Assembly (NCBI GenBank): GCA_023627715.1
Contig: JAMAHW010000011.1
Coordinates: 62,001 to 126,000 of the forward strand
Direction: 5' to 3'
DNA from: Periconia sp. R9002
Taxonomy: Eukaryota > Ascomycota > Dothideomycetes > Pleosporales > Periconiaceae
Length of the DNA: 64,000 nt
This document shows, piece by piece, positions 3,053 to 57,960 of the stretch. The notes beneath the pieces are model-generated. The model was not told where the DNA came from and did no database searches. It saw only the letters and a program-made list of their open reading frames with translations. The position numbers were made by a program, and so were the translations under genes. The stretch's first letter is position 1. Each line of letters starts with the position of its first letter.

Positions 3053-5397
3053 ATGGCTTCGGTATGTCCATGACCCAATTCATCTGCCATCTGCTCCATC
3101 GTCCTCGTCTCCATCAACAATCATCCGTTATCCCTTGACCTGTCACTAACTCTACCGCCTATTAGCAAGCTTCCACCCAGCCGCGTCCCTATCCCGCCAA
3201 CTATCTCCCCAATGGTGGAGTTCCCGCGCCCTCAGGTCCCGCCCCCGGCGCCGTCCCGCTGCTTCCCAACCAAGGCCGTGTGATCCAGCAAGGCAGCATC
3301 AGGGTCCTGTGTATCGCCGACGTTCGAGGTACCTATCCACCTTTCGCCTCTTATCGCATCCTCGAGAGCTCCGCACTGACATTTTCCCCCAGGAAATCTT
3401 CAGTCGCTCAACCAGCTCGCCGCTGATGCACGCGCAAACTACATCATCCACACGGGCGATTTCGGCTTCTACGACGATCGGTCGCTGGATCGCATTGCTG
3501 ACAAGTATGTACAACCCTGTATACCATGTTCCCAGACCGCTGACCCGATACGCTTAGAACGTTGAAGCATGTCGCTCAATACTCGCCCTTGCTTTCTGAT
3601 GCCACCAAGCGCTCCATTGCATCCGCACCCCCGCAGCCGCCCATCAAAGAACGATTTGCTCGCGAGCGTCTGCCACTTTCCGAGCTGCCTCTCTTTCTCA
3701 ACAAGCAATACACACTCAATGTGCCTGTGTACACGGTATGGGGAGCTTGCGAAGATGTTCAGGTGCTGGAGAAGTTGCGATCTGGCGAGTACAAGATCGA
3801 TAATCTGCACATCATAGACGAGGCACACTCGCGGCTACTCGATGTTGGTGGGGTCAAACTGCGTCTGTTGGGTCTCGGCGGTGCTGTTGTCATGCACAAG
3901 CTTTTCGACAATGGTGAGGGTCGGACAACCATTGCAGGTGGCCAGGGCACCATGTGGACAACTCTGCTGCAAATGGGCGAGCTGGTCGACACCGCAAATC
4001 GTGTGTACGACCCTACTGAGACCCGCATATTCGTCACGCACGCGTCGCCCGCTCGTGAAGGTTTGCTCAATCAGCTCTCCGTCACCTTGAAGGCCGACTT
4101 TTCCATCTCCGCTGGTCTGCATTTTCGCTACGGAAGCTCCTACAATGAGTTTAGTGTCAACCCCACGCTCGACCATTATCGCGGTAAACTTGCTGCATCT
4201 AAAGCTTCGTTCAATGATGTCTGGGATACTGTCAAGACCGAGGTGGAGCCTGCCGTTGCCGACAGCGAGTCTCAACAGCGTCTGTTGAACCTTGCCTTGG
4301 ACATTGTTACCAAAATGCCCTCGGTCGCTAATGGTGGAAATCCTTTCGGTGGCCCAGCACCTGGTCCTCAGAGCGGCGTCATTGACGAGAGCGCGTTCAA
4401 GAACATGTGGAACTTTAACTTGGCCGATGCCGCATACGGATGGCTTGTCCTGGATGTTGACAATGGCAGGATCGGCACGGAGATGAGAGCGCAGGGATTT
4501 AATTTTGCTCATAGAGGTGGCAAGGTCGCTCCCGCAGGGCAAGCCGGCCAGCCTGCCGCTGCTGCACCCAGCACCACGCCCTCTACCTCGGCTGCTAATC
4601 CCGCTGGTCAGCCAGGTTCCACTCAGGCGCGTCCAGCAGCTGCTCAGTCTGCTCCTACTCAACAACCTCGTCCAGCAGCGGCCACGCCTCCCGTTTCGCA
4701 GCAATCGATCAAGTCCAACCAGCCCCCTCGAACGGGCCCTTCACCTGTGCCTGCCACGCCCAAGGATCCCATCAAGGTAGCCACCCCTCAGCCTGGAGCT
4801 TCACACACGGGCGGCGAAAAGTCGATTCCGAGTGAGGTGAAGCCTAATGGAACTGCCCCTCCGGATAAGACCGCCTCCCCTGCACCTCGGGACCCCCAGG
4901 AGCGTAAAGAGAGCAAGGCCCTCTTCATAATCAACGTCAAGGACGAGGATGAAGCTCGTAACCTTCTCGCGGATGAAGACAAAGCTAAATGCGAAAAGAT
5001 TGAGAAGATTAAGCACTTCTTTGTGGCTCACTTTGCCACTCCTGCGGACATGATGGCTGCTCTGAACCGAGTCGCCCCTGAAGTCAAGAACAACAAGGAA
5101 CAGAGCAAGCCCAGCGTCAAGGTTTATCGTGACCCATCCAACAACCAACCAAGGTATGGAGCTGGTTCATGGCAGGCCAGCAGCAGGGGTGGTGTGCAAG
5201 GAGGCTACCGCAGCGGCGGCGCTTCCGACAGCGAGGGTGGACGTGGTGGACGTGGCCGAGGTGGATCCTACCGTGGCGATCGAGGAGACCGCAACGACCG
5301 TGGGGGTCAGCGTGGACGCGGTGGACGCGGCCGGGGAGGGTACAACCGTGGTGGACAGGGCGAGGGTGCGGCAGCCTCTCCGGCGGGCGAGTCGTAG
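3053..5397 (+). CDS. DUF2433 family, calcineurin-like phosphoesterase-related protein with C-terminal RGG box
   Basis: Predicted 707-residue protein in four exons: 3053-3061 (only nine nt, encoding MAS), 3166-3328, 3393-3504 and 3558-5397. The splice sites are canonical and all phases match. The N-terminal part reads IRVLCIADVRG, then IIHTGDFGFYDD, then YTVWGACED and FVTHASPAREG. These resemble the D-x-H, GD and GNH(D/E) blocks of metallophosphoesterases, but several metal-ligand positions look altered (ADVRG for DxH, WGACED for GNHE), so catalytic activity is uncertain. Then comes a long Ala/Pro/Gln/Ser-rich linker (about residues 400-540), a short predicted folded segment with KALFIINVKDEDEARNLL, and an Arg-Gly-Gly repeat tail (about 625-700) of the kind that binds RNA. 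I recall the architecture as the fungal DUF2433 family; the function is not established. A role in RNA metabolism is inferred from the RGG box. Confidence 0.8.
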
Positions 5398-26449: not shown

Positions 26450-28407
26450 ATGGGCTGCTGCGGTGATCGCGAAAAGGGCATCACTGTCTCTGAACAGCAG
26501 AAGTGGGACTATATTGTCAGTCAATGCCTTTGCGGCGCCATTTCTCGTACCATTGCTAACGTCACTAGACACTCTCTGATTTCAAATCTACATCCTGCCT
26601 TGCTCCCCTCTCGTACGTTTGGTTGTGGGTTCTCGTCTTGATTTCGGGTGCCGTGTACGGTGCCGACGCCTTCACCGCTGTCAACCTCCTCGCCTTCGAC
26701 AAGTGGTCCAGCCAGGTCAAGCCCAAGGTCAGCTTCGAGGTCGCCAAATGGATCTTCGCTGTCTGCATCATCCTCTCCTACGCCTTTCTCGTCTACCGAT
26801 GGATCAGGGCCATCCGTGTCATTCGGTCTGGCAGCGTCGCCGAATGCTATCTGGAACCGCTTGCTGCCATCTGGCAGAGTATGCGTCTGACCAAATCTGG
26901 CCAGGGATGGCGCCGTTTCCTTGTCTTTGCCGAGCTCACAAAGTCCAGAAAGGGCGTCGATTACATTGCGCTATTCGTATACTTCCAATTCAAAGGCGCC
27001 TTGATCATCATTCTAGCCCAAGGTCCCCGTATTGCCATTAATGCTCTAACGCTGTGGGCTGTCGTCGAAGCTCAATTGATCCCCACCGGTGACCATGCAT
27101 CCAAGGAGCACAGTGCCTTCGTGCAGTTCTTCCGAAACATTGAAGAAATGGCTAGGACCGGAAACAGGCAAGAAATCATCGTCTACTTCACCATGTTGTT
27201 CTCCCTGGTCATTTGGGTCATTGCTGCACTCTCACTCCTCATCTCCTTCATCCTCTACATCTTCTACCTGTGGCACCACGTCGACAAGTCGGATGGCAGC
27301 CTTACCAAGTATTGCCGGAGAAAGATTGAGTCCCGTCTTGAACGCATCGTGAGCAAGAAGATCAAGAAGGCGTTGGAAAAGCAGGACATGAAGCGCAGGA
27401 AGGAGGAACAGATTGCGGTGAGCAAGGGCGAGACAACCGCAAGACTGCCCACTCTTCCAAAGCTGGCCGACGACGACGCCATGTCGGTCTACTCTATGAG
27501 CACTACCACGACTACCTTGCCGCCTTACTCCAATGGACCTTCTAGGACCAACACCATGAGCACCACGCGCACGGGTGGGATGGCCATGAAGCAGCCCACT
27601 CTTCCCTCTCTGGACGAACGGCCGATGCCTGCCCGCTCCGACACGCAAGGAACCGCTTTCTCCACTGCCAGTAATGCTCCTTTGTTGGGTCAAGCGGCTG
27701 AAATGGGCCTCTCTTCTCCTCTACCTCCTATGCCCACGCGAGAACCCAATTCCGACTACTTTAATGGCCCGCCTCCTCGTGGACCGCCACCGAATGGCAT
27801 GGCCGGCCGACCCTTCTCCCCCATGTCTCAAGGGCGATCTTCCCCAGCTCCACGCGGTATGCCTCCACGCCTTGACACCCAGTTTGGCGGTCGCAATTCG
27901 CCTGCACCTTCGCAAGGCGGCTACGGTTCATACTCAAACCGTCGGCCTGGGGGCCCTCCCCTGAACAACGACCCAACCTTTTCTCCCTACAATAACAATG
28001 CGCTTGCGTCCGGCCCCTCTTACGAGATGTCCCCGGTTGACTTGTCCTCTTCCAACTACGCGCCTGCACCTCAGCAGAACTACGAAAGCCCTGTGGTTAT
28101 GGATGACTACAGACCACCTCAAATGCCAGGCATCTTGCGTCCTGGTTCCCCAGCGCAGATCCAGCCACAAAACCAGGGAATGCCCGCCAGGGCTGGAACA
28201 GCTCCGCCATCAAACCCGCGCGCCGGATTGCCTGCCACTCTGCAATCGGCCATCCAACGCCGCGAAGCGTCCCAGCCTCTTCCCTTTCGAGGACCGGGAA
28301 CTCCGCAACAGCGAAGCGCTACTGCACCATTGAGTCAACCTGGGCATGGACCAGGCCCTACTGAGAGGAGCAACACTCCTCAAGGACAGGGCTTCAATGG
28401 TTATTAG
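26450..28407 (+). CDS. Kch1/Prm6-type plasma-membrane protein (putative low-affinity K+ influx channel)
   Basis: 634 residues; exon 1 26450-26515 (MGCCGDREKGITVSEQQ...), a 53-nt intron (GTCAGT donor, GCTAAC branch, CACTAG acceptor), exon 2 26569-28407. The N-terminus QKWDYI joins SDFKSTSC, a pattern I associate with yeast Kch1/Prm6, proteins needed for K+ influx during calcium-linked pheromone or ER-stress responses. Four or more membrane segments are visible: VWLWVLVLISGAVYGADA, WIFAVCIILSYAFLVYRWI, FKGALIIILAQGPRIAINALTL and MLFSLVIWVIAALSLLISFILYIFYLW. A basic cytosolic segment follows (RRKIESRLERIVSKKIKKALEKQ). The C-terminal half is a long Pro/Ser/Gly/Asn-rich tail, much longer than in the yeast proteins. 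The early MGCC could be a lipidation signal, which is inference. Family call fairly firm, transport function by homology only. Confidence 0.85.
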
Positions 28408-50857: not shown

Positions 50858-50957
50858 NNNNNNNNNNNNNNNNNNNNNNNNNNNNNNNNNNNNNNNNNNN
50901 NNNNNNNNNNNNNNNNNNNNNNNNNNNNNNNNNNNNNNNNNNNNNNNNNNNNNNNNN
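50858..50957. other. Assembly gap (100 N)
   Basis: Exactly 100 N, the conventional length for a gap of unknown size. The right edge is a GAAGAAGTA microsatellite, the left edge unique sequence, so the true gap probably contains more repeat. Confidence 0.99.
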
Positions 50958-51047
50958 GAAGAAGTAGAAGAAGTAGAAGAAGTAGAAGAAGTAGAAGAAG
51001 TAGAAGAAGTAGAAGAAGTAGAAGAAGTAGAAGAAGTAGAAGAGGTA
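50958..51047. repeat. (GAAGAAGTA)n microsatellite abutting the gap
   Basis: About ten near-perfect 9-bp units, degrading into GAAGAGGTA and GAGCAAGAG to the right. Any protein read through it is low-complexity and is not a gene. It lies just downstream of the first small membrane-protein gene (51153-51320, minus strand). Confidence 0.95.
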
Positions 51048-51152
51048 GAAGAGCAAGAGCAAGAGTAAGTAAGAGCAAAGAATAGAATTGTCTATTACGA
51101 ATCAAAAACCGAATTAAAAGTAAACGTAAACTCACCAATACCATCCAGTCAT

Positions 51153-51320
51153 TCACGTATATCCCCGCCGTTTCAAGTACTGCAAGACCGCCATAACCAA
51201 GGATCCAACAGCGATAATGATGGTCGTGATGCCGATGAGGAGGTTCTGGAGCCCCGGCTCGCTTGCTTCGCTTGGGGGGAGGATAGGAAAGGTTGCGTTG
51301 GTTTTGGGGAGGGTTGGCAT
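51153..51320 (-). CDS. Small single-pass membrane protein, family member 1 (55 aa)
   Basis: Starts MPTLPKTNATF; context ACCATGCC. Residues 8-10 are N-A-T, an N-glycosylation sequon. A Pro/Ser/Glu stretch to about residue 22 is followed by GLQNLLIGITTIIIAVGSLV, which with MAVLQY forms one transmembrane helix. The tail is KRRGYT. The neutral or acidic N-terminus with a sequon and the basic C-tail predict N-terminus outside or luminal and C-terminus cytosolic. Three more genes with the same layout follow at 52856, 54257 and 57799, all on this strand. I do not recognise the family. No enzyme motif. A TTATAA sequence lies about 100 bp upstream on the coding strand. A larger overlapping open frame on the same strand (51532-51173) is a Pro/Ser-rich shadow. 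Confidence 0.8.
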   Translation of the reverse strand: MPTLPKTNATFPILPPSEASEPGLQNLLIGITTIIIAVGSLVMAVLQYLKRRGYT

Positions 51321-52855
51321 GGTGGAAGTTTTTTTCGGAGGGGAGGGAAGAGGGGGAGTTTTGTTTTGAGGAAAGTTGAGGACGATTGATGGAATGAGGA
51401 GGGAGGTGAGGTGCGATTATAAGGTGGAGGGGAGGACGATTCTAGCACTTGACTTGCCAAAGGTGAATGGTGCGCATCGTTTTCTCGATTGCCGTAACGG
51501 GCCATGTGCATAAGCTCCACATCCCTAGCCAAGCCTGCTTACCTCCTTATTTAAGTCCGGAGTGCACATAAAGACCGCTTTTTCTTCCTCGTATCTGTTC
51601 GATCCCAGCAAACACCGTGTCATCTTGTAGCACATCTGCTTGCAACGGTGGATTGGTCGGCCCATGGGTTTTGCATCTCTAATAACGTCAACGATTTCCA
51701 CGGTAGACATTTTCCAGAACTGGCAATCATTGTTAATTTGAAAGCCGTGCACGTAAAGGAAGAAGATGAGGTCCAAGTTGCAATTTTTGGATATGTGTGG
51801 GGTGCAGGGGAATACTGCGGCGCCTTACTAGGGTGGATAAGCGACGGTTATCACAGTTGCTTGTTAGGGTAGGTGGTGGCTTCTTTACGGTAAGGCGGTC
51901 GATTTCTTGCGGTTGGCGGTTGCTCCGGCAGGAAAGTTGATAGTGGTTGCTCGTGTTCGTCCCGTGAAATCCGTATCCGCAAACACGGATCACGAGAGTG
52001 GCACCCTTACACACGAGGGATTTGAGTCGCACCCTTACAGGTGAGGATTTTCAGTGCGGACTGAGCATCTAACGCATCCCGTATCCATGTTTCCGCCCAA
52101 CTCACACATCATCCCACGTCACCCAAACTTGCCTCAGGAATCTTTCCTGCAAAATCTTGGCACTCATCCCCTTCTTTGAATAGATAATTGCTGTCAATTG
52201 TGTGCCCAGTGTAAGCCTTGCACGTGACTAGTATCCTCCCAAGTGCTCCCGAGGTCGCATTGCAGTGAATGCTGCGCCCCCTTCTCACACTCTGCTGCCT
52301 GCACCTGACATGATGGCAGTTTGCTTGGCAAATTTGAGAGTGACTTCTGGAGCATATTTAAGTCTACTGTAGCTTTTGTTACCTGGTTAAGCTTTCACCT
52401 GGCCTTTCTGCAAACTTTGGACTTTGAACGTCGATAGAGCGTGTAGAGATTGCGTGCACCTCAAGTTTGGGACTTATTTATTGAATTGTGAGATCACCGC
52501 AAGATTTCGAACCGTCGGCTGCCTCTTAGGTAGTGATGGTGGATTCGTGAAACGTGATGGTTATTTTTTGAAGTAAAAGATATTGACTGGACATGCTTTT
52601 AACATTGTATACGCTTTCAATCATACTATCAAACACACGGTTGCCTTAGGCGTATGTCATCCACAGCACATGGAACGTCCTATACACGATCCGTGGACCA
52701 GATTAAGCACTGTAATACCGCTGCAACCCAACACTAGATAAGTAACAGACCGCTGTTCTCATGCATAGCCTCACTTCGCACTCTCGGTCTACTCTGAAAA
52801 TATGAGAATCCACACTGTTGCTGAAGAGTCACGGACTTTAGTTTCACTCACCGAT
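51321..52855. other. Intergenic region between small genes 1 and 2
   Basis: No further gene seen. Promoter of small gene 1 at the left. The stretch 52080-52850 has no frame above background. No other copy of the LLIGIT-type helix found on either strand here. Confidence 0.4.
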
Positions 52856-53029
52856 TTATTGTCTATTCTTTGCCCGCTTGATCAACTGAAGGACCGCAAC
52901 GGCCAAAGAAGCTATCGCGAGAAGTATAGTTGTGATACCGATGAGTAGATTCTGAAGGCTTGGTTCGGCTGGTTCGGTTGGAGCGATGATGACGGGGATG
53001 CCCGTGTTGTTTTTGGGAAGAGAGGGCAT
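52856..53029 (-). CDS. Small single-pass membrane protein, family member 2 (57 aa)
   Basis: Starts MPSLPKNNTGI; N7-N8-T9 is a sequon. Pro/Glu-rich to about residue 22, then SLQNLLIGITTILLAIASLA plus VAVLQL as the membrane helix, and tail IKRAKNRQ. Closest to member 1: both begin MP(T/S)LPK and share LQNLLIGITTI. The open frame extends upstream to 53188, but the 5' part contains a GTATGT donor (about 53117) and a CTACAG acceptor (about 53060) compatible with a 5'-UTR intron. A TATATAAA box lies at 53216-53209 on the coding strand, so I start at the internal ATG (53029) that matches the other members. Another in-frame ATG, four codons upstream, is possible. Function unknown. Confidence 0.8.
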   Translation of the reverse strand: MPSLPKNNTGIPVIIAPTEPAEPSLQNLLIGITTILLAIASLAVAVLQLIKRAKNRQ

Positions 53030-54256
53030 GATGGGTTTCATGAACTTCTCACAGTTACTGTAGAGGAAAGATGATATAGCTATATGAGGAGACGAAAAGG
53101 GTTTCTTTGGAGAAACATACGTGGAAATTGATTGCGAAGATGAGTCTTGTGGAATTCGTGATTGAATAGGCAATACGGGGGGCCTCACTTGCAGTCGATG
53201 AGCATGGCTTTATATACGCGTGGCAGAAGCGGACGTTCGGCTGATGGGCACGTTAGTAGAGTTACCGCAGGTACAATTTTCTGTTGCCTCTGGACCCTTC
53301 CGTCTCATCGTGATCGTGGGGTCTACCAAGTATCCATTGATGCAGTGAGCATTAGGGATGCGGCAACTGCCGTGATTCGGGGACGTCGGTGGCTAGCCAA
53401 GTGCGCTTTTCCGCCTTGGTCTAGCGTCTGTTTTCACCACCAATACATCATTCGCTCACGATGGCTTGCAGAGGACAACCAGTTCGCCAAGCCGAAGACG
53501 CTAAGCTACATCGATATGCAATATCTGTGCCTGACCCCAAAGTCTGCAACAGCCCATTACGGGCGTCTTCAGATTGGAGTGGGCATGTGGCGAGGGCCAG
53601 CCAGCTGCACACCCACCCTCGCATAATCCAGCGAGACGCACCGACGCCGATTTCTCGGATGACAACGTCTTCAATTACTTGTTAGTATGCTCAATTTACA
53701 CTCTACCCGTCAATGATACATATAGATATGTGACCTAAAACGTATTACAGCCCAGCGCGGAAGGTCGGCCTTAATGGTGTCAGACGAAATGTAAAGAATC
53801 GCCCGCTCACAGCTAAAACACTATTATTGGTTTTCTCTTGTCGCATTTCGTGTGCAGCTCGAGACACGGGTTATAGTGGTGGTAGTGCCAACAGAAACAG
53901 TCTCCCGACCACTTATAGCCATTAACTGAGAGCGCGGGTGAGCTGTGAGGCAGGCGAGCGGCGAGGGGCAGGGGAGACAGCCCAATGGCGGCTCTGTCCG
54001 GGCCCTACGGGGCCGGTCTGGCAACACGCCAGACCGGCGATCATTCACTGGCAGGGGCTTGGAAGGATGCGTAACCCTGAATGGCCGTGCGGCGGATTAT
54101 ATAGTCAAACTCACTATCTAGAATTCTTCTGTACGATGACTAAATTGCTTTCCTCCCCCAAGCCTTATTCCGGACTCGTAACAAGCACCGCATCCTAAGA
54201 GAATTAGAAACCACTTTTACACAAAATTCATGAATATCTTACCGTTGTATATCTCT
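53030..54256. other. Intergenic region between small genes 2 and 3, with GC-rich hairpin
   Basis: No supported gene. 53930-54100 is clearly GC-richer than its surroundings and contains a perfect inverted repeat (54012-54038). The plus-strand frame 53162-53626 has no recognisable feature. Confidence 0.4.
54012..54038. other. Perfect 11-bp hairpin with 5-nt loop
   Basis: Arms GCCGGTCTGGC (54012-54022) and GCCAGACCGGC (54028-54038), loop AACAC. Very stable for its size. Terminator-like in form, though not followed by a T-run, and no gene end adjoins it. Confidence 0.8.
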
Positions 54257-54421
54257 TCATTGTTTCCTGCGCCAGACCAGCTTGATAATAGCTACACCCA
54301 AAGTCGCAATAGCTAGGAGAATCGACGTAATCCCGATCAAGAGTTCCTGGAGATTGAACTGAGAAGATTGGCCTGGAGGAACAAAGGAAGCAGTTGAGTT
54401 CAAGAAATGTATCGAGGCCAT
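54257..54421 (-). CDS. Small single-pass membrane protein, family member 3 (54 aa)
   Basis: Starts MASIHFLNSTAS in context ACCATGG; N8-S-T10 is a sequon. The linker has Pro/Gln instead of Pro/Glu. The helix is NLQELLIGITSILLAIATLG plus VAIIKLV, and the tail is WRRKQ. It differs from the others in the first seven residues and in the E for N at the helix start. The frame is open upstream for another 150 codons, but that part is low-complexity, overlaps a tandem duplication (54772-54920) and contains a TATA-like TTTATATTTA near 54713, so it is probably promoter and leader. Function unknown; same orientation and layout as its three relatives. Confidence 0.78.
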   Translation of the reverse strand: MASIHFLNSTASFVPPGQSSQFNLQELLIGITSILLAIATLGVAIIKLVWRRKQ

Positions 54422-55294
54422 GGTTTGCTGAACGACCTTGTGTAGAATACAGGAGTTTTGGTAGAAATTTTTGAGCATATTCTTTTCGATCAAGATATAC
54501 TGCCAGGGACGTGGTTGTGGAGCTTTTGCTGTTTGAGAGCCGAGCAGGGAGGCAGTGGACCCTGGACTTGTACGGCAGCGGGAGCTGGAGTGGAGGGGCG
54601 CGCATCGGTTTGTTTCGCTGCCAAGCGCAAGCCCCTGCCATTGTAGAAAACGAGGGAGTGTAGTCAACTCGTGGCACGTCAGGTTCTCATAGACATAAAC
54701 TCTCATAAATATAAAAATCCCGTTTTTCTTTCTTCTACAAGGTTCGTCTCTTTCCATGCTGCCTACCCCAGCGCGTCCGTGCTCTGCTCGACCCAATGTC
54801 CCAAGCTCACTTAATACCCTCGACTCTTCTGCCGCACAAATCCAGGGCGTCCGAGCTCTGCTCGACCTCGGAGGCTCGCACATACAATCTCACTTTGATG
54901 CCCTCTGCTCTTCTGCACGCACACTCACATCTTAAAATTCGCTTGAAAAGCCAGCATTGGTCCTCCCCTCAGCCCAGTCGTCCCTTACGCCATATCATCT
55001 TCCTCCAAAGTTTTGCTCCCATTATTCTGGATAAGATCATGATTGAATAACTTAGCACAGTTGATAAATACAATTCCAACAGATCACAAAAGACCAGTAG
55101 GTATTTGACCAGCTCCATAAAGACAAGGAAGGAAACCGCTCCCTCATTTCTGGCCCAGTAACCCTTACCGCTCGGCAGCTACATTTCCTACCAGGCCAAA
55201 GTACACATCACAGCACATGCGAACGACCTTCTGTTCCTAGCCTTCTACATCAGTCACCTGAACACATACCAACGATTGTACACCAAAGGAGATC
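54422..55294. other. Intergenic region with a 70-bp tandem duplication
   Basis: 54772-54839 and 54842-54920 are two diverged tandem units sharing GCGTCCG(T/A)GCTCTGCTCGACC and CTCTTCTGC(C/A)(G/C)(C/G)ACA. No gene seen. The right part is the leader of the gene at 55295. Confidence 0.5.
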
Positions 55295-57016
55295 ATGCCT
55301 CAGGTTACGATCGATCACTATTTCCCGCCCCGTAGACTGCGTTCCAATACTCCCAGTCCGTTTCTCACCCTTCCTCCCCTAGTGCGCGCGCAGATCTATA
55401 TCATGGCAAACCTCGGTCCCGACCGCTTCGTGGACCTCAATTGCTGGACCCAGGAACGGTGTCCCAGTGCCGCAGGCCTAATCGACGAGCCAAACCCCCA
55501 TACAGACACAACCATTTGGCTCCAACGCGAGTATGAGGAGCGAAATCCACCCGATCCACTTCCTGTAAGCTTGCTTCGAGTCTGCAAAATGGTATCACAA
55601 GAGGCTCAAGATATGCTCTATGAGAGCAACTGCTTCGCAATATCCCAACGAAGCCCGGGAGGCTTACGCGCACTTCAACAGTTGAGCGCACATGCAATTA
55701 AGAGTCTGCGAACCCTAATCGTCCACATAACGCCGTGTGCCTGTCTGGCACCACACTGCGTGAATATTCCTCGGCAATCGCCACATGTCGTCGAGTCTTT
55801 CCAAAACCTTGCTTTGAAGGGCCACTTTCCCGGTGCTAGGGACCCGTCGCACGACCGACCACTGTCCAACACTTCCAGGACAGATAGATGCATTTTAGAG
55901 CAGTGGGAAAAGGTCTGCCGTCCACTTTCAGAGCACACCGTGTCAGGCCGACTTGCACTATACGTCATCTGCCACGTCAAAAACGTGCCGATTGCAGAGC
56001 AAATTACTCAATCGCTTTACCAGCTCCCAAGGCTCCGCGAATGCGGCATTTGCTTTGGCCACTCCACTCATGGGAATGGTGGAGAACTTCGTGATCAAGC
56101 GACCGCGGCCGTGCAGCGTCTAACCCATAAAGATGTGTTAGTGCCACAGCATCCTTTCCCGTTTCTTAGCCTCCCAAGGGAGCTACAGCTCCAGATTTTG
56201 GCAGACAGCCCCCTCGTTCAAGATGCGTGTGTACGCATATCCGATGGAAGATTTCTCGGCAGTCACCTAGTGCACAGCTGCGATAATGCTAAGATCAGGG
56301 TTAATAACGATTCAAGTATTTCACTGGCAACTTTCTGCGCGAAAGAATGCGCAGCGTATCGCAAAGGCTGTAGCAGCGCTACCTACGCTTCCTATTTTAC
56401 CCAGGTCTCTTGCGTGAGCAAGGCGTTTGCAGAATTGGCCACCGATGTCTTCTTTTCTCGCAACGCATTTAGGATATATACCTGGCGTGCTGAGCTAGGG
56501 TGGAAGGACAAGGGCAACTTCAAAGGGATGCATTCCTTCTTAGCCGGCCTTCCACTGCCCGCCCTGAGACGGATCCGTCGACTCACCATCTTGCTGCCCC
56601 CAGTTGGCGACGCAAGCCTCGCCAACGGACCACCAGATTGGATGCTATGGGAGTCAAGTATTCAGATCCTTGCGGCATCGGCAGCGTTACACGGGTTGGT
56701 CCTCACTATTAAAATTGGGGAGTATTGGTGGCGTCATCCAGATGATGTACCAAGGGAGCACTTTACTAAGGAGAATGAGATGCAGACACTACAGGCATAC
56801 AGAGAGATTTGTCGACCTCTTATTCAACTGCGAGGACTCTACCTGCTTTTCCTTTATGTCCCCTGTCCGTTTGGTAGAGAAAACGAGGAGGCAAGAGTTG
56901 AAGTAGAGCGTGGGCTAGAGCAAACAGTCATGGGCGCTGATTACGACGCGTACTCTATAGGGAAACCGCCACCCGATGAATATACTCGTCCCTTTCTCGA
57001 AGACTTCTGGCAATAA
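55295..57016 (+). CDS. Hypothetical protein with F-box-like second half
   Basis: 573 residues, single exon, start context atcATGc. Two similar halves: residues 26-36 (LPPLVRAQIYI) begin a first fungal L-P-x-x-x-R-x-x-I-Y-type module followed by VSLLRVCKMVSQEAQDMLYESNCFAI. Residues about 285-305 (FPFLSLPRELQLQILADSPL) start an F-box-like helix, followed by a conserved FTQVSCVSKAFAELATDVFFSRNAFRIYTW block in which members of this group test for outlier residues. Cysteines (CAKECAAYRKGC, about 350-365) could bind a metal. No signal peptide or TM helix. It is the only other gene within the small membrane-protein cluster, on the opposite strand. An SCF adaptor role is possible but unproven. Confidence 0.75.
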   Translation: MPQVTIDHYFPPRRLRSNTPSPFLTLPPLVRAQIYIMANLGPDRFVDLNCWTQERCPSAAGLIDEPNPHTDTTIWLQREYEERNPPDPLPVSLLRVCKMVSQEAQDMLYESNCFAISQRSPGGLRALQQLSAHAIKSLRTLIVHITPCACLAPHCVNIPRQSPHVVESFQNLALKGHFPGARDPSHDRPLSNTSRTDRCILEQWEKVCRPLSEHTVSGRLALYVICHVKNVPIAEQITQSLYQLPRLRECGICFGHSTHGNGGELRDQATAAVQRLTHKDVLVPQHPFPFLSLPRELQLQILADSPLVQDACVRISDGRFLGSHLVHSCDNAKIRVNNDSSISLATFCAKECAAYRKGCSSATYASYFTQVSCVSKAFAELATDVFFSRNAFRIYTWRAELGWKDKGNFKGMHSFLAGLPLPALRRIRRLTILLPPVGDASLANGPPDWMLWESSIQILAASAALHGLVLTIKIGEYWWRHPDDVPREHFTKENEMQTLQAYREICRPLIQLRGLYLLFLYVPCPFGRENEEARVEVERGLEQTVMGADYDAYSIGKPPPDEYTRPFLEDFWQ

Positions 57017-57117
57017 TACGAAAGGCTAGGACCTACAACTCGCGAACTTCAAACGTAGAATAGTTAGCTTAGGGTAGAGATAACAAGAACTCTAAATTGT
57101 ACTAAGGCCCCTTAAAG

Positions 57118-57141
57118 TATATATATATATATATATATATA
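57118..57141. repeat. (TA)n microsatellite
   Basis: About 12 TA units in the 3' region of the F-box-like gene. Confidence 0.95.
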
Positions 57142-57250
57142 CCTATCTAGGCTTATAACCTCTAAGAGAATATAAAACGTAGTTGATCTGTACTTTGCTT
57201 GATCCTTGTATATTTCAACAATCCTATTTCATCTACTAGAGAAGGCAACT

Positions 57251-57274
57251 AAAAAAAAAAAAAAAAAAAAAAAA
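57251..57274. repeat. 24-nt poly-A run
   Basis: Uninterrupted A24. It may mark the end of a retroposed copy, but no recognisable body lies upstream of it; simple slippage is enough. Confidence 0.95.
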
Positions 57275-57798
57275 TCAAGTTGTACGCCGGAATATAGATG
57301 AAAGGAAGCTAACGATGGAGAATAAAATAAAAGGGAAAATTGAGTAGGGTCTAAGACAATTGGAAACCCTACGCCGCGCGAAACGAGAAGGCGGGTAACG
57401 TTCTTAACTATATGCGCCGCTTCCTCTTCTACGCCATCTTGCTAAACGCGAAAACGCCGCCCTCATTACATGACGCCCAACCCCCAGTATCTTCCGTGGA
57501 AAAGTAATTTACGGACGCCCAACCAACCAATGAACTGCACCAATACTCCAGCCTGATACTTTTTTAACATCATCCCAATTGGGCAGAGAACAGTAAAGTA
57601 TTCAAATACGATCAAACGAGTAATTTTCAGCCTTATCCTTCCCACCTGATTACATACTCTCAAAACCATGTGACTTCAGTCGGTGAACTGCTCCTTTAGG
57701 TTGTCGTTGTAAACACTTGCTCCGCATCAGCACCAACTTCACTGGAAAAAGTGGACTTGAAAACAGAAGAAACGAACATACGGGAGAACATGTTTTTA

Positions 57799-57960
57799 TT
57801 ATCTCCTCCGTCTCATTAACTGCATGATAGCCACGCCTAAAGTAGCAACGGCAATGAGAATGCCTGTAATACCGAGTAATAGATTTTGAAGACTTGACTC
57901 GGGAGGATCGGCGGGGAAAAGTGAAGGCACGGTAGAGTTTGCGGTCTTTAAAGGAGGCAT
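57799..57960 (-). CDS. Small single-pass membrane protein, family member 4 (53 aa)
   Basis: Starts MPPLKTANSTVP in context TACCATGCC; N8-S-T10 is a sequon. Linker Pro/Asp/Glu/Ser. The helix is SLQNLLLGITGILIAVATLG plus VAIMQLM, and the tail is RRRR. The frame upstream continues only to a TTG, so the ATG at 57960 is the first start. A TTTAAATA box lies near 58086. Shares with the other members M-P/A at the N-terminus, the sequon, L-Q-N/E-L-L-I/L-G-I-T, A-V/I-A/G-S/T-L and the basic end. Confidence 0.8.
   Translation of the reverse strand: MPPLKTANSTVPSLFPADPPESSLQNLLLGITGILIAVATLGVAIMQLMRRRR

Follow-up and report, generated by a model that had tools for sequence, protein, structure and literature searches.

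Small membrane regulators with a single helix are known, as in the phospholamban and sarcolipin type, where the helix shows heptad-like packing, and in yeast Pmp1, which spans the membrane once and ends in a basic tail. Double deletion of yeast PMP1 and PMP2 reduces the specific activity of the H+-ATPase by 50%, as stated in PMC6521590, citing Navarre 1994. Here, we analyse four tiny genes, c1 to c4, encoded in a window of 64,000 nucleotides of Periconia sp. R9002 (contig JAMAHW010000011.1, positions 62,001 to 126,000). We find that c1-c4 are almost certainly real genes. As judged from their sequences, they form an old tandem family under purifying selection on the protein, a new and unnamed family, hardly annotated, of a broad known kind, the membrane microproteins.

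The four frames lie on the minus strand where an earlier note on this DNA had described them, and none of them (53-57 codons) contains an internal stop. The first, c1 (51153..51320), encodes 55 aa with an NAT sequon and the tail KRRGYT; c2 (52856..53029) encodes 57 aa with NNT and the tail KRAKNRQ; c3 (54257..54421), the most diverged copy, encodes 54 aa with NST and the tail WRRKQ; and c4 (57799..57960) encodes 53 aa with NST and the tail RRRR. They share the plan given in the earlier note: a short N-terminus with one N-x-S/T sequon, a Pro-rich linker, a transmembrane helix opening with LQ[NE]LL[IL]GIT, and a basic tail. The note had placed the sequon at residues 7-10, and it is indeed present in all copies, but its position needs correction to N7 in c2 and N8 in the other three. 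Amino-acid identity among the copies is 37-56%. When they are aligned, 15 columns are invariant, and 11 of these fall within L24-A44 (c1 numbering), in line with the claim that conservation is strongest in the helix. When each copy was compared with the window by tblastn, its best match to another copy had an E value between 1e-16 and 3e-10. When a profile built from c1-c4 themselves was run on the six-frame translation of the window, the copies had E 1e-30 to 2e-32; the informative part of this search is the absence of other matches, the next one having E 1.9.

The differences between copies are those expected of a conserved protein. With the NG86 method, the nonsynonymous rate (dN) was 0.34-0.63 in the six pairs, and the synonymous rate (dS) was 1.4-2.7 in five pairs and undefined (saturated) in the sixth. 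The earlier note had listed a dN/dS near 1 among the results that would refute its reading; we obtained 0.15-0.27 where the ratio is defined, with dS near saturation, and the YN00 and LWL85 methods were consistent with this in the few pairs where they gave values. In the core, all pairs considered, there were 0.32, 0.09 and 0.65 differences per codon pair at positions 1, 2 and 3. The same pattern is found in two independent pairs, with 19, 11 and 31 differing positions in the 54 codons of c1-c2 (Fisher test of position 2 versus 3, p 1e-4) and 22, 10 and 34 in the 52 codons of c3-c4 (p 3e-6). The N-terminal part taken alone gave no significant result in these pairs (p 0.10 and 0.13) but did so in c2-c4 (p 0.006), and the constraint thus seems to act mainly on the helix. 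In a crude simulation of neutral change, identity averaged 12% and reached at most 33% in 5000 runs, 89% of which had internal stops; the identity among the copies is above this. Similarity above that of shuffled sequences was found in the coding parts of all six pairs, weakly in one (c2-c3, 0.04), and in none of the 18 comparisons of flanking DNA (upstream 0-200 and 200-400 nt, downstream 0-200 nt).

Relatives of these proteins are annotated in two other Periconia species, one in each, and both are uncharacterised. A search with c2 against about 5.8 billion proteins scored and returned a single candidate, DM02DRAFT_612652 of Periconia macrospinosa (P0001; 57 aa, 84% identity to c2, E 7.8e-20), which a search of proteins with the c1-c4 profile also found, along with one chance match. 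A profile restricted to the last 40 residues found an unnamed protein of Periconia digitata (P0003; 56 aa, 59% identity to c2, E 1.5e-14). Word-based searches are weak for proteins this short and small genes often go unannotated, so that a wider absence of relatives is not implied. The P. digitata gene set used transcripts from twelve conditions as evidence, according to PMC10483032. Neither relative is identical to any of the four copies, and both share with them length, start, sequon, helix and tail, the six proteins being similar from end to end. The fungus is of the class that had been expected, as both relatives found are from Periconia, order Pleosporales.

In the 42.9 Mb genome of R9002, single-protein searches with c1, c2, c3, c4 and P0003, which disregard introns and give lower bounds for large families, returned only the four places of c1-c4. 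Two other, weak matches in this genome (C80, 29% identity, E 0.29; C31, E 0.195) lack the shared plan and were attributed to chance. The chance match of the protein search, a protein of 95 aa (P0002, E 2.8), has the motif LQNLLIGI in a different layout and was dropped, and among 67 stretches of viral contigs that fit a pattern none was a relative. The identity of c2 is much higher to its P. macrospinosa relative (84%) than to its own paralogs (44-56%). The split of at least c2 from the other copies thus looks older than the split of the species, in which case further copies, unannotated or lost, are to be expected in P. macrospinosa.

Two readings would deny that the frames are complete genes. 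One takes them as a dispersed repeat or as transposon fragments that remained open by chance, and the presence of four copies within 7 kb speaks for it. It is refuted by the sequences and its probability is close to nil: similarity ends at the start and stop codons, differences concentrate at third positions, no further copies were found in the genome, and relatives are annotated in two species. The earlier note had raised a repeat element as an explanation of the helix match, and with flanks devoid of similarity none accounts for it. Clear repeat-induced point mutation was not seen within 500 nt of the copies, where the index TA/AT is slightly raised (0.79-0.95; window 0.75) and the index (CA+TG)/(AC+GT) is 1.04-1.23 (window 1.17). 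The other reading, that the frames are terminal exons of longer, unrecognised genes, is very improbable. It draws on the open frame extending upstream of two copies: c2 has a second in-frame ATG four codons upstream, at 53041, and c3 lies inside a 208-codon open frame when the first ATG is used. On the other side, there is no similarity in the 400 nt upstream, and the relatives are catalogued as proteins of 57 and 56 aa. The shared start is supported because both of them align from the same Met as the four copies.

The regions behind the stop codons provide an observation that goes beyond the earlier note. Each copy is followed by a candidate intron in its 3' untranslated region, on the minus strand: 51092..51135 for c1 (44 nt, GTGAGT...TAG, 17 nt past the stop), 52794..52851 for c2 (58 nt, GTGAGT...CAG, 4 nt past the stop), 54195..54242 for c3 (48 nt, GTAAGA...TAG, 14 nt past the stop) and 57742..57781 for c4 (40 nt, GTATGT...CAG, 17 nt past the stop). 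Two donor patterns were used, and the c3 candidate satisfies just the looser one; the c4 candidate, the shortest of the four, has no branch-site-like hexamer inside. The rule, set after inspection of the four copies, calls for a donor-like hexamer shortly after the stop and a pyrimidine-preceded AG that closes the intron. In the window and 30 kb of neighbouring sequence, with three copies included and c3 left out (its first-ATG frame has 208 aa), this arrangement was also found after 2 of 212 other ATG open reading frames (ORFs) of 45-70 aa and after 11 of 580 others of 30-120 aa. It occurs at 2.3% of all window positions, or 3.6% when the pyrimidine condition is lifted. That every copy has such a candidate just past its stop speaks for transcription and is a strong hint that the copies are spliced genes.

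The sequon and the charges bear on how the proteins would sit in the membrane. The conservation of the sequon is borne out: it is found at N7 or N8 in all six proteins, with 16-19 residues separating it from the LQ at the start of the helix region. Its residues vary (NAT, NNT, NST, NSS), and the asparagine that carries it is not the same in c2 (N7) as in P0001 (N8). The product of the per-sequence shuffle chances is 4e-4 for the six proteins and 3e-3 for c1-c4, values that are not strict p values since the rows are related. In the five proteins measured, the residues ahead of the hydrophobic core have a net charge of -1 or -2 and those following it one of +3 or +4; for P0003, an estimate by eye gives -1 and +2. 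The excess of positive charge C-terminal to the helix is as in type III (N-out) single-span proteins of the endoplasmic reticulum (ER). Sequon and charge distribution together favour an orientation with the N-terminus outside and the C-terminus inside, which we regard as probable. The AlphaFold model of c2, made with the six-row alignment, predicts one helix at residues 23-56, with a predicted local distance difference test score of 93-94 at residues 31-50 and a low-confidence N-terminus.

The helix carries a suggestive 3-4 heptad pattern, with six positions invariant or nearly so (L28, G31, I/V35, A38, L42, A45 in c2 numbering). With the choice of register allowed for, the permutation p is 0.005-0.05 with four proteins and 0.002-0.02 with five, and columns that are always small recur at a lag of seven in four pairs (p 0.006 if only this lag is considered, 0.08 if lags 3, 4 and 7 are all allowed). 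The reading that we tentatively prefer, and that falls just short of probable, is that of a membrane microprotein acting through its helix, which would pack against another copy or against a larger membrane protein. An accessory or regulatory mode of action is possible rather than probable. The chain is so short that its helix would clear the ribosome only around termination, so that insertion would be post-translational, through a route of the ER membrane protein complex (EMC) or guided entry of tail-anchored proteins (GET) type, both of which PMC8657811 describes for such proteins. The mildly acidic N-terminus would enter the ER lumen and be N-glycosylated once, and the basic tail would remain in the cytosol, where it could bind acidic lipids. 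The helix, in which the small residues G, A and A recur with a spacing of seven beside L, I/V and L, may pack on its own kind or on that of a larger membrane protein, whose activity or stability it would tune. The four copies would then serve as isoforms suited to different partners or conditions. A more elaborate version is a long shot: a set of N-glycosylated N-out microproteins of the Periconia lineage would form homo- or hetero-oligomers through a left-handed small-residue heptad and, as a four-member code, replace one another as subunits of a single common membrane partner, each gene keeping a regulatory intron directly behind its stop.

Several observations weigh against these proposals. 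The heptad signal fades as proteins are added (p 0.02-0.13 with six), the invariant L25, Q26, L29 and T33 (c2 numbering) lie off the heptad, and of eight settings tried for the helical moment of conservation just one gave a value below 0.05. Codon choice exceeds random synonymous recoding in c1 (fraction 0.0005) and c2 (0.007) but not in c3 (0.14) or c4 (0.37), and so supports only the first two. Pfam was run on 23 neighbouring ORF pieces and showed no evident partner gene. The few checks that bear on the roles suggested in the earlier note, in stress, with a transporter or in defence, gave no evidence for any of them. Finally, tail-anchored proteins of mitochondria or peroxisomes likewise have a basic tail behind a C-terminal helix.

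In that alternative, the proteins would be anchored in the mitochondrial outer membrane or in peroxisomes, with the N-terminus in the cytosol, the tail inside the organelle, and a sequon that is incidental. The most hydrophobic 19 residues do end 8-10 residues from the C-terminus, followed by the basic tail, in all five proteins measured, which is the known signature of this class, and the single helix lies near the C-terminus by both hydrophobicity and the model of c2. Yet a sequon in six of six proteins, with shifting residues, would be purposeless in the cytosol, a point that is not conclusive because the rows are related, and we consider the tail-anchored alternative unlikely while still deserving attention. 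Distinctly less credible is the idea of small pore-forming or membrane-active peptides, of a defence or self/non-self type, oligomerising in the membrane. Tiny, helix-centred proteins in tandem, found so far only in Periconia relatives and with a weak heptad stripe of small residues, could be of this sort, but the helix evolves slowly under purifying selection, and Pfam recognised no nucleotide-binding leucine-rich-repeat receptor (NLR), effector or immunity gene among the neighbouring pieces.

These 23 pieces, taken from the 63 open stretches of at least 150 aa in the window, include ordinary fungal genes: NADH:flavin oxidoreductase (PF00724), Duc1 protein, HSP70, AA9 enzyme, a KCH channel, a major facilitator superfamily transporter, glycosyl hydrolase 2 and others. 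A 2EXR/DUF7730 protein gene (55295-57013, plus strand, 573 aa) lies between c3 and c4 and splits the tandem array. An imperfect direct repeat (28 nt, 79%) is found between c1 and c2 at 51996-52051. An assembly gap of 100 N (50858-50957) lies some 200 bases past the c1 stop, and beside it a 9-base microsatellite, (GAAGAAGTA)n, extends from about 50958 to 51045. Further away, the fungal potassium-channel gene (KCH, PF16944) occupies 26569-28404 (E 6.6e-91). On the strand opposite the HSP70 gene, the stretch 44689-45693 matches NAD-GH (PF10712; E 1.9e-74), a family that was probably built on HSP70 mirror frames and does not mark a gene. Just past the right end of the window, open frames that by eye are aspartic protease-like and hybrid sensor kinase-like lie at 3732-5236 and 6818-9907 of L016.

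The codon-level evidence supports a conserved protein family, for which the searches found just two annotated members, one per species in two species. Genes for membrane proteins this small readily escape notice in fungal genomes. Fungi are known to contain conserved small ORFs that had been overlooked, as reported in PMC7394265. Database searches gave no family name. All Pfam matches of c1-c4 were below the curated cut-offs, with nothing stronger when the two relatives were added; NCBIfam, searched with c1-c4 only, gave three scattered weak families, with one member each (best E 0.0017); and a narrow search of open-access literature found no paper on the family.

Among described families and systems, DUF202 (PF02656) matches the helix and basic end of three of the six members weakly (best E 0.021), at 14.3-15.7 bits against a cut-off of 23.4 bits, most likely through generic similarity of membrane helices. 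Phospholamban and sarcolipin are animal proteins, and the c1-c4 profile matched no chain of that kind in the PDB, where its only two matches had E 1.4 and 1.7. The family of the yeast plasma-membrane ATPase proteolipids Pmp1 and Pmp2 (PF08114) was matched by none of the six proteins at E 1; nor did it match anything in the genome of R9002, a search that lacks a positive control because 14 control genomes also gave nothing over the cut-off. Compared with Pmp1, proteins of the c1-c4 type have a longer, Pro-rich N-terminus with a sequon. What the two have in common is a very small membrane protein encoded by more than one gene, two isogenes in yeast and four copies here, and this likeness is best taken as an analogy in the mode of working, not as membership of the same family.

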